A stretch of 64,000 nt of DNA, taken from NCBI RefSeq assembly GCF_000147715.2, contig NC_017934.1:1612001-1676000 (forward strand). The letters are read 5' to 3'. Below, piece by piece: positions 37,482 through 43,278 of this stretch. The first letter of the stretch is position 1. Each line of letters starts with the position of its first letter. The notes under the pieces are model-generated. The model was not told the origin of the DNA. It saw only the letters and a program-made list of their open reading frames with translations, and ran no database searches. The stretch is from Mesotoga prima MesG1.Ag.4.2. GTDB lineage: Bacteria; Thermotogota; Thermotogae; Petrotogales; Kosmotogaceae. A program made the position numbers and the translations under genes.

Positions 37482-37988
37482 TTGCCTGCCTGTGTTAGGG
37501 TTCTAGGTATCGATCCAGGTTTTGGAGCGGTTGGATATGGTGTAGTCGAGATGAGATCGTCGCGGATCGATCTCGTTTCATACGGAGCGATCAGAACTGA
37601 GCCGCAAGAACCTATACCTGACAGACTTCTAAAGATTCATGATCGGCTTGAAGAACTTCTACTCGAGTTTCGCCCCGATGAATCTGCCGTCGAAGAACTT
37701 TTCTTCTTCAGAAATGTCACGACGGCGATTCAGGTGAGCGAGGCGAGGGGGGTTATACTTCTTGCAATGAGGAGACACGAAGTACCGATATTTGAATATA
37801 CACCCCATCAAGTAAAACTTGCCGTTACTGGCTACGGAAGAGCCGAAAAGGGGCAGGTTCAGAGGACTTTGAAAACTTTCTTCCGAATGGAAGTTAACCC
37901 CAGACCCGATGATGCGGCCGATGCGCTAGCAGTAGCCTGGTGTCACTTGACTTCAAGGAAATTCCCCGGAGGTGTTCGAAAGGCATGA
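37482..37988 (+). CDS. ruvC: Crossover junction endodeoxyribonuclease RuvC
   Basis: The 168-residue protein resolves Holliday junctions with RuvAB. It has the RNase H-fold motifs LGIDPGFGAVGYGVV (first Asp), AVEELFFFRN (Glu), YTPHQVKLAVTGYGRAEKGQV and RPDDAADALAVAWCH (final Asp pair). The TTG start is fixed by GGAGGTG seven bases upstream. It overlaps polC by 4 bp (ATGA). Confidence 0.95.
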   Translation: MPACVRVLGIDPGFGAVGYGVVEMRSSRIDLVSYGAIRTEPQEPIPDRLLKIHDRLEELLLEFRPDESAVEELFFFRNVTTAIQVSEARGVILLAMRRHEVPIFEYTPHQVKLAVTGYGRAEKGQVQRTLKTFFRMEVNPRPDDAADALAVAWCHLTSRKFPGGVRKA

Positions 37989-40900
37989 AACTATTCTTGA
38001 GAAATGTGGGACTCCCTTTATCGAGGCTTCTTTCGAAGGCTTTGAGCATCGACTCATCTTTCGAGTGTGAAGGAATAGAGATTTCCGATATATCTGTGGA
38101 CTGTAAATCTAAAGAGATCGAGTTAGCTTTCCAATGTGAGGTTAGCAACGAGATAAAGGAGTTTCTTGAATCTGTCTTTTGTGAGAAGGCTTCTCGACTT
38201 CTAGAGTCTTCCGTGACTCTTTCGTTTAAGACTTTAACCAGCGAGGGTGAAATACCTGACGAAGACGCAATGGAAGTTACCGAGTCTCAGTTTAGAGAGA
38301 TACTCCAGCTTACGAATGGTGCATCTTCTTATCTTAGATCCTCGGAAATGGAGTTCAAAGACAACAAAATAACTATCTCAGTTCACGACCAGTTCTCATT
38401 TCAACGAATCAGTTCTAAGAAGCATGACTTACGAAAGGCAATAGATAAGGTCTGCAAGAGAAGTATTCCTTTTGAGATAACACTGGACATTTCAGAGGAT
38501 CAGGACTCACCAGTTGAGGAAGTCTCTTTCGATAGAGAAGATAATGGAGAAACGGAGCATTTGGAAGAAAGATCGGATTCAGTCTTGATGGGTAGATCGA
38601 TCAGGGCAGTCTCTGTGAAGATGAGTGAAGTTCTTGGCAATGAAACCAATCTTGTTGTCAGCGGGAGGATCTTTGGACTCGAGTACAGGAATGGAAAGCT
38701 TTCGATTCTAACGTTCAACGTGACTGACTATACGGATTCCCTCACAGTCAAACTTATCGGTGAGAATGCGCGCTCTCTTTCCGAAAAGTTACGCGAAGGC
38801 GATGAAGTAACGATCAGGGGGAAGATGGAAACTGATAGCTGGATGAAAGAAGAGATTCTGATCCCGAGGGATATCGTTAGAACTAAACTGCCGAAACGCA
38901 TGGACAATGCGATGGAAAAGCGCGTCGAGCTGCACCTTCACACCAAAATGAGTTCTCTGGATTCTGTAGTAGATGTAAACGATTTGGTAAACACTCTTAA
39001 AGATTGGGGCCACGATGCCGCTGCAGTGACTGATCACGGCGTTGTTCAGTCTATACCGGAGTTCTACTTTGCGGCAAAAAAGAAAGGAATAAAACCTATC
39101 TTTGGTATGGAAGGTTACATGATAAAGGACTCGGAACAGATATCAATGAATCTGGAAAAAGAGGACTCGCCTCTGGAAAGTGCGACCTTCATTGTTTTTG
39201 ATCTTGAAACTACAGGTCTTAATCCTAAGGAAGACGAGATAATTGAAATCGGTGCAATAAAGATGAAAGGCAACGAAATTCTCGAGACATTTTCTTCTTT
39301 TGTGAAACCTCAGAAAGAACTCTCGTCTCTAATAACAAGCCTGACTGGGATAACTGAAGATATGCTTTCAGGCGCAGGAACAATCAAGCAAGTTCTTCCT
39401 GAATTCACGAAATTTGCTGAAGGAGGCATTCTAGTTGCACATAATGCCTCTTTTGATTATGGTTTTATCCGCAACTCAGTAAAGAAATACTTCGGAGGCG
39501 ACTGGGAAATGCCGTGCATCGACACCCTTGCCCTTGCAAAGAGCCTTTACAGAGCCAAGAGTTACTCTCTGGACAACGTAGTGAAGCGACTTAAACTGGG
39601 ACATTTCGATCACCATAGAGCTTATGAGGATGCGAAGGTTACTGCAGAGGTCCTTAAGAAATTCCTTCAGCAAGCAAAGAAGAGAGGAGTCGAGAAGGTT
39701 AACGAGTTGGAAAAGCTGAGAAAGAACCAGAATCTCGACTCGCTGAAGCCTGTTCACATAAGTATTCTTTCAAAGAACAGGAAAGGTCTTGAAAATCTCT
39801 ACAAGTTGGTCACTGCATCACACACCAAGTACTTCTACATGAAGCCAAGGATACCAAAGAGCTTGCTTACTGATTTCCGAGAAGGTCTTCTCATAGGTAG
39901 TGCGTGTATTTCAGGAGAGCTTTCCAAGGCATATATAGGTGGTGCGAGTGTAGATGAGCTCGAGGAAATCGCAAAGTTCTATGATTACATTGAAGTCATG
40001 CCGCTCGATAATATTGACACATCAGAGGGCGAGACTAGTATGTCTAAAGAGACGCTGATAAAGATGTATCGAGAGTTTTATAAAGTTGGGAAAAAACTAA
40101 ATATCCCAGTTGTGATGACCGGTGACGTACATTTTGTCAATCCACATGACGATATTTATAGAGCAGCAATAAACGCGGCCCAGGACTATGACAACTTTCA
40201 GAATCAACCTTCTCTTTATCTCCACACTACCGAAGAGATGATTGGCAAAGCTCTGGAAATCTTTGAAGACGAGGGGATCGCTAAAGAAATCGTTGTCGAT
40301 AATTCGAGATTAATCGCTTCGCAAATCGAAAACGTTGTCCCGATTGAGGGTAAGCTGCACCCACCCGTAATCGAAGGCGCCGATGAAGAAGTAAGGAAGA
40401 TGGCCATTGAAAATGCAGAAAGGCTTTATGGAAAGCCTTTACCTGATATTGTAGAAAAGAGGCTGAATCGGGAGCTTGAGGCGATAATTGGTCACGGCTA
40501 TGCCGTTCTGTATCTCATCGCGCAGAAAATGGTCAAGAAATCTAATGAGGATGGCTATGTGGTTGGTTCTAGAGGGTCGGTGGGGAGTTCGCTCGTGGCC
40601 AATGTTATCGGTATTACTGAGGTTAACCCTCTTCCACCACATTATCTATGCCCCGAGTGTGGTAAATCAGTATTCCCGGAAACCGATCTGGAATCCGGTT
40701 ATGATCTACCCGCTATGAAGTGTCCTGGATGTGGAAATGAAATGTTGAAGAACGGTCAGAGCATACCATTCGAGACCTTTCTCGGATTCGAAGGAGACAA
40801 GGTTCCCGATATCGATCTTAACTTTTCCGGGGAGTATCAAGAGAAGGCCCATTCATTCATTGAAGAATTGTTTGGCAGAGACCATGTTTTCAGAGCCGGT

Positions 40901-42223
40901 ACAATATCCACAGTTGCTGAGAGAACGGCTTTCGGTTTTGTCAGGGCTTATTCGGAGAAGAGCGGCAAAACTCTACGGAGAGCAGAGCAGGAGAGAATTG
41001 CCCGTGGAATAGTTGGAGTAAAGAGGACGACCGGACAGCATCCCGGTGGATTGATGATCGTTCCTAAAGACATGGATGTTCATAACTTTACCCCTGTACA
41101 ACATCCCGCAAACGATACAAAAAGCTCGATACTAACCACACATTTCGCATATGAAGTCATCCACGACGATTTGGTCAAAATAGATGCACTGGGACACGAC
41201 GATCCCACCTTCATAAAAATGCTGAAGGACATCACGGGAGTGGATCCCGAGAAAATTCCGATGGACGATGAGGAAACCCTTGGGATTTTTTCCTCACTGA
41301 AGCCTCTTGGCTTGCGATTTCACGAGCTTGGAACGGATGTGGGGACACTTGGGATCCCTGAATTCGGTACTACCTTTGTTCGAAGCATGCTTTCAGATAC
41401 GAGACCCTCTACTTTTGGCGAGCTTGTAAGGATATCGGGCCTGTCTCATGGGACTGATGTTTGGCTTAACAACGCGAAGGATATCATCACTTCGGGACAT
41501 GCTTCATTGTCGCAGGTTATTGCCTGTAGGGATGACATCATGAATTATCTAATTGGCAAGGGAATGGAGCCAAAAGAGGCCTTCAAGATTATGGAAAAGG
41601 TCAGAAAGGGTAAGGGTCTCAGCAAGGAAGATGAAATAGAGGTAAGATCTTGCGGTGCTCCTGAATGGTTCATGAATTCGTGTAAGAAGATCAAGTACCT
41701 CTTTCCCCGGGCGCATGCCGCCGCTTACGTGAGCATGGGTTACAGAGTCGCTTACTTCAAGGTGCACTTTCCTCTTGCCTTCTACAGCACCTACTTTTCG
41801 ATCAAGGGCGGGGAATTTGATATAGACATCTGTACTTCCGACATAAATTCAATCAAGAAAGAGATAGTTCGATTAAGGTCCGATCAAGATAGAAATGTCA
41901 AGGACAGAGCGAAGGAGACACTTCTTGAAGTTGTTATGGAAATGAAACTGAGAGGATTTTCTTTTCTCAATGTGGATCTTATGGAGTCCCACCCTACGAG
42001 GTTCTTGATTGAGGGGAATTCACTAAGAATTCCCCTTAATAGGCTTCAAAACATGGGCGACAAAGCGGCAAGATCAGTTGAAGTTGAGAGAGAGAAAAGG
42101 CCGTTTTCATCGGTTGAGGATTTGATCCGCAGAACTGCTCTTAACAAGACAAGTGTTGAGATGTTAAGAAAATACGGAGCTTTGAAGAATCTGGCCGAGA
42201 AAGAACAGATCAGACTGTTCTGA
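37985..42223 (+). CDS. polC: PolC-type DNA polymerase III alpha subunit
   Basis: The 1412-residue replicase has the PolC domain order. After an N-terminal region and OB fold, a PHP domain starts near residue 313 (ELHLHTKMSSLDSVVD). It is interrupted by a DnaQ-type 3'-5' exonuclease (FDLETTGLNPKEDEI near 402, later HNASFDYGF). A zinc motif CPECG/CPGCG lies near 889-910, and catalytic aspartates are in PDIDLNF near 941. The polymerase and helix-hairpin-helix region follow. Exonuclease and polymerase lie in one chain, so proofreading is built in. The start overlaps ruvC, with GGAGGTG 10 bases upstream. Confidence 0.97.
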   Translation: MKLFLRNVGLPLSRLLSKALSIDSSFECEGIEISDISVDCKSKEIELAFQCEVSNEIKEFLESVFCEKASRLLESSVTLSFKTLTSEGEIPDEDAMEVTESQFREILQLTNGASSYLRSSEMEFKDNKITISVHDQFSFQRISSKKHDLRKAIDKVCKRSIPFEITLDISEDQDSPVEEVSFDREDNGETEHLEERSDSVLMGRSIRAVSVKMSEVLGNETNLVVSGRIFGLEYRNGKLSILTFNVTDYTDSLTVKLIGENARSLSEKLREGDEVTIRGKMETDSWMKEEILIPRDIVRTKLPKRMDNAMEKRVELHLHTKMSSLDSVVDVNDLVNTLKDWGHDAAAVTDHGVVQSIPEFYFAAKKKGIKPIFGMEGYMIKDSEQISMNLEKEDSPLESATFIVFDLETTGLNPKEDEIIEIGAIKMKGNEILETFSSFVKPQKELSSLITSLTGITEDMLSGAGTIKQVLPEFTKFAEGGILVAHNASFDYGFIRNSVKKYFGGDWEMPCIDTLALAKSLYRAKSYSLDNVVKRLKLGHFDHHRAYEDAKVTAEVLKKFLQQAKKRGVEKVNELEKLRKNQNLDSLKPVHISILSKNRKGLENLYKLVTASHTKYFYMKPRIPKSLLTDFREGLLIGSACISGELSKAYIGGASVDELEEIAKFYDYIEVMPLDNIDTSEGETSMSKETLIKMYREFYKVGKKLNIPVVMTGDVHFVNPHDDIYRAAINAAQDYDNFQNQPSLYLHTTEEMIGKALEIFEDEGIAKEIVVDNSRLIASQIENVVPIEGKLHPPVIEGADEEVRKMAIENAERLYGKPLPDIVEKRLNRELEAIIGHGYAVLYLIAQKMVKKSNEDGYVVGSRGSVGSSLVANVIGITEVNPLPPHYLCPECGKSVFPETDLESGYDLPAMKCPGCGNEMLKNGQSIPFETFLGFEGDKVPDIDLNFSGEYQEKAHSFIEELFGRDHVFRAGTISTVAERTAFGFVRAYSEKSGKTLRRAEQERIARGIVGVKRTTGQHPGGLMIVPKDMDVHNFTPVQHPANDTKSSILTTHFAYEVIHDDLVKIDALGHDDPTFIKMLKDITGVDPEKIPMDDEETLGIFSSLKPLGLRFHELGTDVGTLGIPEFGTTFVRSMLSDTRPSTFGELVRISGLSHGTDVWLNNAKDIITSGHASLSQVIACRDDIMNYLIGKGMEPKEAFKIMEKVRKGKGLSKEDEIEVRSCGAPEWFMNSCKKIKYLFPRAHAAAYVSMGYRVAYFKVHFPLAFYSTYFSIKGGEFDIDICTSDINSIKKEIVRLRSDQDRNVKDRAKETLLEVVMEMKLRGFSFLNVDLMESHPTRFLIEGNSLRIPLNRLQNMGDKAARSVEVEREKRPFSSVEDLIRRTALNKTSVEMLRKYGALKNLAEKEQIRLF

Positions 42224-42231
42224 GGACGAAA

Positions 42232-43278
42232 ATGGATTTCAAAATAAGCGCTTCAGATTATGCAAAGCTGATCGATCTTTTTGGAAGAGTATCCGGTACT
42301 CTGGAACCCTCCTACAGATACTTTCAGATCTACTACAAGAGAGGACTGAAGTTTTTTGCTTCTGATGGTTGCATGAAGCTTGAGTTTTCCTCCGGCGTTG
42401 CTACCTCACCTTTCAATGGAGTTTATACGGTACCGATCGATTACGCTCGAGCTTTGAAGAGTTCTGACCCAACCTCATTAATTTGCTTTTCTGCGGGTGA
42501 AGAAGACCTAGAGCTGAGGACGGCCTCAGAGACGCTTACTTTACAAAAGGCCCGCAGCAGCACTCTTCCGGCTATGGAAAGAAAGTTTGAGTTCTTCTCG
42601 CGTTTTCCCCTGAAGGAATTCAGTAGTTCTTTGAACTTTGTTTCATCTGCTTCTGTTGAGGGAGAAACTGTCGAGATCTTCTCAAAGAAGAACGAGACTG
42701 TTCTTGCCTCATCGGCGAACAGAATGGTATTGGTTTCAGTTCTTGAATACGAGCCAAAAACCGAGTTCCGTTACTCTCTTCAATATGTAACCGTTAGGCA
42801 TCTGGTGAAGGCCTTAGAGTTGCTCACATCGGAAGAACTCTATGCTGGAACAGGGATTTCCGAGCTGGGGCTGAAGATTGGTCCTCTATTGTTTTCAATA
42901 TGTACTGATGAAGCGGATTTCTCCGAACCACCATCCTTCTTTTTCGGAGACACCGATGATGGAAATGACGTACAGAGAAAGGCCTTTCTTTCCGCTCTCA
43001 GAAAGATAACACGGTTATCAAAGCATGGATTTTCGGTTCTGATGATTTCTGACAAGAGCAAGTTGAAGTTCTTTCTGAAGGCCGGTGCTCTCCGTTATGA
43101 ATGCGAGGTGTGTGATTTTGTTGGTGATGAATTCGTTGCGCAGGTAGATCCGAGAAAGCTGCAGTCTGTTATTTCAAGGATAAAAGATTCTAAGATTCGT
43201 CTGGTAACACGAAAGGGGAATCTGCTTATGGTGGGAAGAAAGAGCAAGATGTACCTTATGGTGCCCCTTATTAAGTGA
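42232..43278 (+). CDS. Divergent sliding-clamp (DnaN-like) protein
   Basis: The 348-residue protein has no standard signature, but its layout follows a bacterial beta clamp. The N-terminal repeat has GLKFFASDGCMKLEF and GVYTVPIDYARALKS. The middle repeat has VLASSANRMVLVSVL, where clamps usually have a SDGFRLA-type segment. The C-terminal repeat has FVAQVDPRKLQSVISRI, and the end YLMVPLIK resembles the clamp C-terminus YIVMPIRL. The length is slightly below the usual 366. It starts 8 bp after polC behind GAGGACGAAA, so it is cotranscribed with the replicase. Whether it is the main clamp or a paralog cannot be told here. Confidence 0.6.
   Translation: MDFKISASDYAKLIDLFGRVSGTLEPSYRYFQIYYKRGLKFFASDGCMKLEFSSGVATSPFNGVYTVPIDYARALKSSDPTSLICFSAGEEDLELRTASETLTLQKARSSTLPAMERKFEFFSRFPLKEFSSSLNFVSSASVEGETVEIFSKKNETVLASSANRMVLVSVLEYEPKTEFRYSLQYVTVRHLVKALELLTSEELYAGTGISELGLKIGPLLFSICTDEADFSEPPSFFFGDTDDGNDVQRKAFLSALRKITRLSKHGFSVLMISDKSKLKFFLKAGALRYECEVCDFVGDEFVAQVDPRKLQSVISRIKDSKIRLVTRKGNLLMVGRKSKMYLMVPLIK

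Follow-up and report, generated by a model that had tools for sequence, protein, structure and literature searches.

A divergent DnaN-fold clamp paralog of the Thermotogota encoded beside polC in Mesotoga prima

What is the protein encoded directly downstream of the PolC replicase in Mesotoga prima: the main sliding clamp, a clamp paralog, or a regulator of replication? A preliminary description, made from the DNA letters alone, had proposed all three. The gene lies in a 64,000-nucleotide stretch of the strain MesG1.Ag.4.2 genome (NC_017934.1, positions 1,612,001 to 1,676,000; hereafter, the window), and all features of the window considered here are on its forward strand and numbered from its first letter. 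A ruvC-like open reading frame (ORF; 37482..37988, named by sequence recognition) lies upstream of polC (37940..42223; longest ORF, 1427 amino acids [aa]; TIGR01405, 1612.9 bits), whose product has the tail EQIRLF, with QIRLF (42206..42220) forming a C-terminal QxxLF clamp-binding motif. polC ends at 42223, and the 348-aa ORF in question (42232..43278; ATG start) begins after a gap of 8 nucleotides, just as first described. Its GAGGA Shine-Dalgarno sequence overlaps the polC stop within TGAGGACGAAAATG (42221..42234, spanning the polC stop and the downstream start), and this overlap, together with the short gap, makes translational coupling of the two genes probable.

Single-sequence searches with the window protein (Pfam, NCBIfam, PHROGs, PDB, and a GTDB scan) returned no relative, and the protein matched none of the curated DnaN models (PF00712, PF02767, PF02768, and TIGR00663), against which members of its family reach E 1e-5 at best; the very low similarity to known clamps noted at the outset is thereby borne out, and the family goes unrecognised by Pfam and NCBIfam. 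These empty searches reflect divergence, not an absence of relatives. Predicted as a monomer by AlphaFold (pLDDT of 92.8, pTM of 0.90), the protein is a complete three-domain clamp, each domain containing the beta-alpha-beta3 unit twice (beta-alpha-beta3-beta-alpha-beta3), in agreement with the three-repeat layout originally proposed. In Foldseek and VIA comparisons, the model aligns over its full length with DnaN structures (best VIA Z score of 28.5 over 343 residues), including that of Thermotoga maritima DnaN, TM0262 (PDB accession number 1vpk; Z of 28.4, rmsd of 3.4, 344 residues). The model of a distant, Thermotoga-type ortholog that is 22-23% identical (pLDDT of 94.4) behaves in the same way (Z of 29.2 to 1vpk), such that both models match DnaN at Z of 28-29 over ~345 residues, with three tandem clamp domains predicted along the whole chain. 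At the profile level, hhalign aligns the paralog family with Thermotogota DnaN across 348 columns (probability of 98.6%, E of 7e-16) at ~14% identity, and, when all PDB sequences are searched with the family profile, only beta clamps are recovered (E of 2e-6 to 0.02) before the first non-clamp, at 0.21. Profiles and models together establish a DnaN homolog whose predicted fold is that of DnaN over its full length.

The source genome (G000) also carries a canonical dnaN (G000:C1:749407-750513; 368 aa; TIGR00663, 250 bits), located 0.9 Mb from the window gene and recovered by the search for a second dnaN that the preliminary description had suggested. The pocket residues of its product are intact (L155, D173, G174, R176, P242, Y244, V247, M362, P363, and R365). 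The window gene is therefore a paralog, one of the roles first envisaged, and not the main clamp, which was another. In some genomes, two canonical-type dnaN-like genes occur besides the paralog (G018:C1:1818708-1819064 and G018:C1:806411-806764; also G052:C32 and G052:C55). Two others, G041 (f6) and G047 (f9), possess the paralog and PolC, with canonical dnaN not detected in the searches made. We rejected the paralog as sole clamp in these genomes: their paralogs lack the canonical pocket, the PolC of G047 keeps QISLF, and the assemblies are incomplete, all of which makes an assembly gap likelier than a missing dnaN.

The paralog is distributed across nearly the entire phylum. A protein search found an ortholog in 59 of 61 related genomes, and a profile of 52 orthologs (A1; presence threshold, E <1e-20) detected it in 98 of 103 Thermotogota genomes, the frame being intact in most carriers. 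The five genomes missed at this threshold are both f7 genomes seen (G042 and G048), both of those seen from genus g34 (G089 and G090), and G072. In these, a broader profile, A5, gave at most weak partial matches, the best of them on DnaN genes; absence from the four genomes of the f7 and g34 lineages implies that the paralog is dispensable there. A scan of one genome per species across ~85,000 bacteria and archaea for the pattern [IVL]PY[VMT][TS][SVA]RH[LI]V yielded 11 matching stretches, 9 of them true members, all in Thermotogota records; a scan with one pattern limits, and does not exclude, relatives outside the phylum. In the source genome, a stretch of 22 residues also matches the family profile weakly (G000:C1:269822-269902; E of 0.0015); it is situated in a short frame with stops and is either due to chance or a tiny remnant. 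In the tree, a single branch separates the paralogs from DnaN (SH-aLRT of 100; stem of ~2.5 changes per site), and, since almost every family of the phylum has both proteins, their divergence is older than the Thermotogota radiation. By this phylogeny, the paralog is an ancient, deep, single-origin DnaN duplicate of the Thermotogota.

We counted conservation over 94 paralog orthologs mapped to Escherichia coli DnaN, whose sequence was verified against PDB. The pocket between domains 2 and 3 that receives QxxLF peptides in DnaN (D173, R176, P242, Y244, V247, M362, P363, and R365) is not conserved in the paralog: D173, R176, Y244, and V247 correspond to variable positions, P242 and R365 align with gaps, and the Pro of P363 is retained in only 28 of the 94. 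The clamp-like C-terminal segment of the preliminary description is accordingly present in the window protein, as YLMVPL, but is not a conserved trait of the family. The mean conservation percentile of the pocket is 0.80 in DnaN (p of 7e-8) versus 0.44 in the paralog (p of 0.86), and, as judged from the alignment, the canonical pocket has been lost in the paralog family.

Other residues are strongly conserved. G22, R189, and K193 are invariant in all 94 orthologs, and D45 (92), E25 (91), C47 (91), C224 (90), E143 (90), H190 (89), and R316 (89) are nearly so. The codons for D45-G46-C47, in a turn of domain 1 that forms part of the conserved site, occupy positions 42364..42372; those for R189-H190-x-x-K193, in the second helix of domain 2, a channel-lining helix in clamps, occupy 42796..42810; and that for C224, in the last strand of domain 2 and co-conserved with C47, is at 42901..42903. 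When the pattern of the pocket is shifted to the junction of domains 1 and 2, where it includes R29, D45, G46, C47, T187, H190, and C224, the mean percentile is 0.65 (p of 0.003), which ranks first among 147 placements of the pattern on the chain, a result qualified by the facts that the site was chosen after conservation had been seen, that it was located by pseudo-symmetry of secondary structure and not by coordinates, and that neighbouring placements overlap. The same positions are mildly conserved in DnaN too (p of 0.011), and part of this signal is therefore structural.

The paralogs also differ from DnaN in charge, with a mean net charge of +5.5 versus -16.2 for Thermotogota DnaN and, within the six channel-lining helices, of +9.4 versus +3.4. 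Of the residues that contact DNA in E. coli, R24 has been deleted and R73 replaced by Asp, and contact with DNA, if any, would therefore involve a different set of residues; on sequence grounds, the charge is compatible with tighter DNA contact but is no proof of it. Among positions of the dimer interface, F106 is replaced by Leu, I78 and L108 stay hydrophobic, and that of I272 is variable or Arg, and the interface, as aligned, is only partly kept.

Our preferred reading, in which our confidence is about even, is that this ancient, Thermotogota-specific beta-clamp paralog serves as an accessory DNA clamp and not as the processivity ring of PolC. The protein would encircle DNA as a dimer, its channel made more basic than that of DnaN by R189, H190, K193, K258, K309, and R316, and would recruit a different partner at the junction of domains 1 and 2, by a site (E25, R29, D45, G46, C47, H190, and C224) that would be the pseudo-symmetric counterpart of the DnaN pocket, with C47 and C224 perhaps constituting a disulfide or paired-thiol site. 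In the order comprising f1 and f2, the paralog is probably co-transcribed with polC, and its dose would therefore follow that of the replicase. A more specific version, which we advance only tentatively, holds that nearly all Thermotogota possess a specialised second ring (for repair or a checkpoint) that is loaded on DNA and whose Cys-containing partner site has moved to the junction of domains 1 and 2, giving one bacterial cell two working clamps, each with its own partner code.

Unlikely, in our estimation, is that the protein forms no ring alone and is instead a regulator, either monomeric or in a heterodimer with DnaN, that modulates the loading of clamps or competes for their partners. 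Such a role would suit a protein whose interface residues are only partly kept, whose canonical peptide pocket is gone, which is encoded beside the replicase in one order, and which evolves faster than DnaN (identity between G000 and G007 of 55% for the paralog versus 76% for DnaN). Against it, orthologs that are ~20% identical keep every one of the three domains along with the two sets of channel helices, and the inner helices bear invariant basic residues that would be needless for a mere decoy.

We regard as improbable a role as a second processivity clamp reserved for PolC (or for the divergent DnaE), the reading suggested by gene order. In 30 genomes, the paralog directly adjoins polC and the two genes are likely to be translationally coupled (16 genomes from f1 and 14 from f2, which belong to one order and from which the f2 genus g6 is excepted), and the window's genus keeps P345 and a hydrophobic C-terminal strand. 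The linkage is nevertheless confined to that order; elsewhere, the paralog follows varied genes unrelated to polC, among them ORFs that, by sequence recognition, we take to be alaS-like (AlaRS type) in Thermotoga-like genomes (L091 and L103), ddl-like (D-Ala-D-Ala ligase) in f3 (L093 and L100), and TsaD-like in one f10 genus (L092). Moreover, D173, R176, P242, Y244, and R365, which are invariant or near-invariant in Thermotogota DnaN, are missing throughout the family. PolC and its QxxLF-type tail are general in the phylum and unchanged in lineages without the paralog, including the four f7 and g34 genomes, as would be expected were DnaN the clamp that PolC uses. No obligate functional coupling is thus visible, and we rejected PolC as an obligate partner in general; of the coupling to the replicase asserted in the preliminary description, what stands is the gene order in these 30 genomes.

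Nor does the distribution of the paralog match DnaE type cleanly. Paralog presence does not track PolC and tracks DnaE type only loosely: the first nine genomes suggested a link, f7 having a full-length DnaE and lacking the paralog, but an association with the short, divergent DnaE was rejected on finding that f5 combines a full-length DnaE with the paralog and that g34 has a short DnaE without it. The phylum contains both forms of this polymerase, the full-length canonical one in f5 and f7 (e.g., G042:C47:188-2974 and G048:C4:9447-12233 in genomes of f7) and the short, divergent one of ~820-950 aa in most others (e.g., G000:C1:700180-702876, equivalent to L192:681-3377, of 898 aa). Separately, several f2 genomes encode a second, shorter PolC-like protein of ~900-1025 aa (e.g., G022:C1:1984984-1987356; also in G018, G020, G021, G024, G025, G027, G028, G029, G036, and G037) that matches mainly the later two thirds of the PolC model, from ~377.

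Quite improbable is a reuse of the clamp fold away from DNA, in a binding or catalytic role (a metal or redox site, for instance) centred on the E25/D45/C47/H190/C224 cluster. In its favor, the residues of highest conservation are polar or Cys/His and lie together at a single predicted junction, but no enzyme family is matched, and H190 varies independently of the cysteines: it is Arg in five sequences with both Cys and stays in three without them, a pattern that argues against a shared Cys/His metal site, which we rejected, and for a Cys pair. Both cysteines are present in 90 of the 94 orthologs, C47 alone in 1, and neither in 3 (all f8), and these losses within one family may represent one event. 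Finally, a decaying, functionless dnaN duplicate, which the low identity to DnaN (~14%) and the absence from a few lineages might suggest, is scarcely credible and already contradicted, given 98 of 103 genomes with a mostly intact frame, residues invariant across families, and dN/dS ratios (~0.03-0.09 in most pairs with measurable dS and 0.23 in one very close pair) that place the gene under purifying selection.

In the usual view, a single ring with a single pocket handles all clamp-dependent work in a bacterium. If the paralog is an accessory clamp, then specialised second clamps exist in bacteria as well, here one kept across almost a whole phylum that has given up the pocket and conserved another site; it would also be a concrete, thermostable protein on which this idea can be tested. 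Our literature search found no paper describing the family, in Thermotoga or elsewhere, and in a 2026 survey of bacterial polymerases, Thermotogae are named a single time and the term DnaN does not occur (PMC12926913).

Among known systems, the closest is DnaN itself (T. maritima TM0262, 1vpk; E. coli, 2pol), with which the paralog shares full-length profile homology and, in the predicted structures, the same three-domain fold throughout; it differs in its low identity, unconserved pocket, other invariant residues, and basic rather than acidic charge, falls below the Pfam and NCBIfam cut-offs, and coexists with a true DnaN. Many Bacillus species likewise have a second clamp gene besides dnaN, dnaN-2, whose product is ~40% similar to DnaN-1 and can participate in replication (PMC3290774, citing Yang and Miller 2008). 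By contrast, the Thermotogota paralog has diverged much further, occurs in nearly the whole phylum, and does not have the canonical pocket, and a recent duplication of the DnaN-2 type was rejected on account of the single deep split, the stem of 2.5 changes per site, and the loss of the pocket. Producers of griselimycin-type antibiotics also carry an extra clamp gene besides the housekeeping dnaN, the resistance copy GriR, which is a close, functional copy tied to the antibiotic cluster; the Thermotogota paralog is ancient and divergent and, as far as its neighbours were seen, not in such a cluster. In eukaryotes, the 9-1-1 (Rad9-Hus1-Rad1) checkpoint clamp is a clamp paralog with altered partner sites that exists beside the replication clamp, and it offers a functional analogy only, for a specialised clamp of the kind we favor here.
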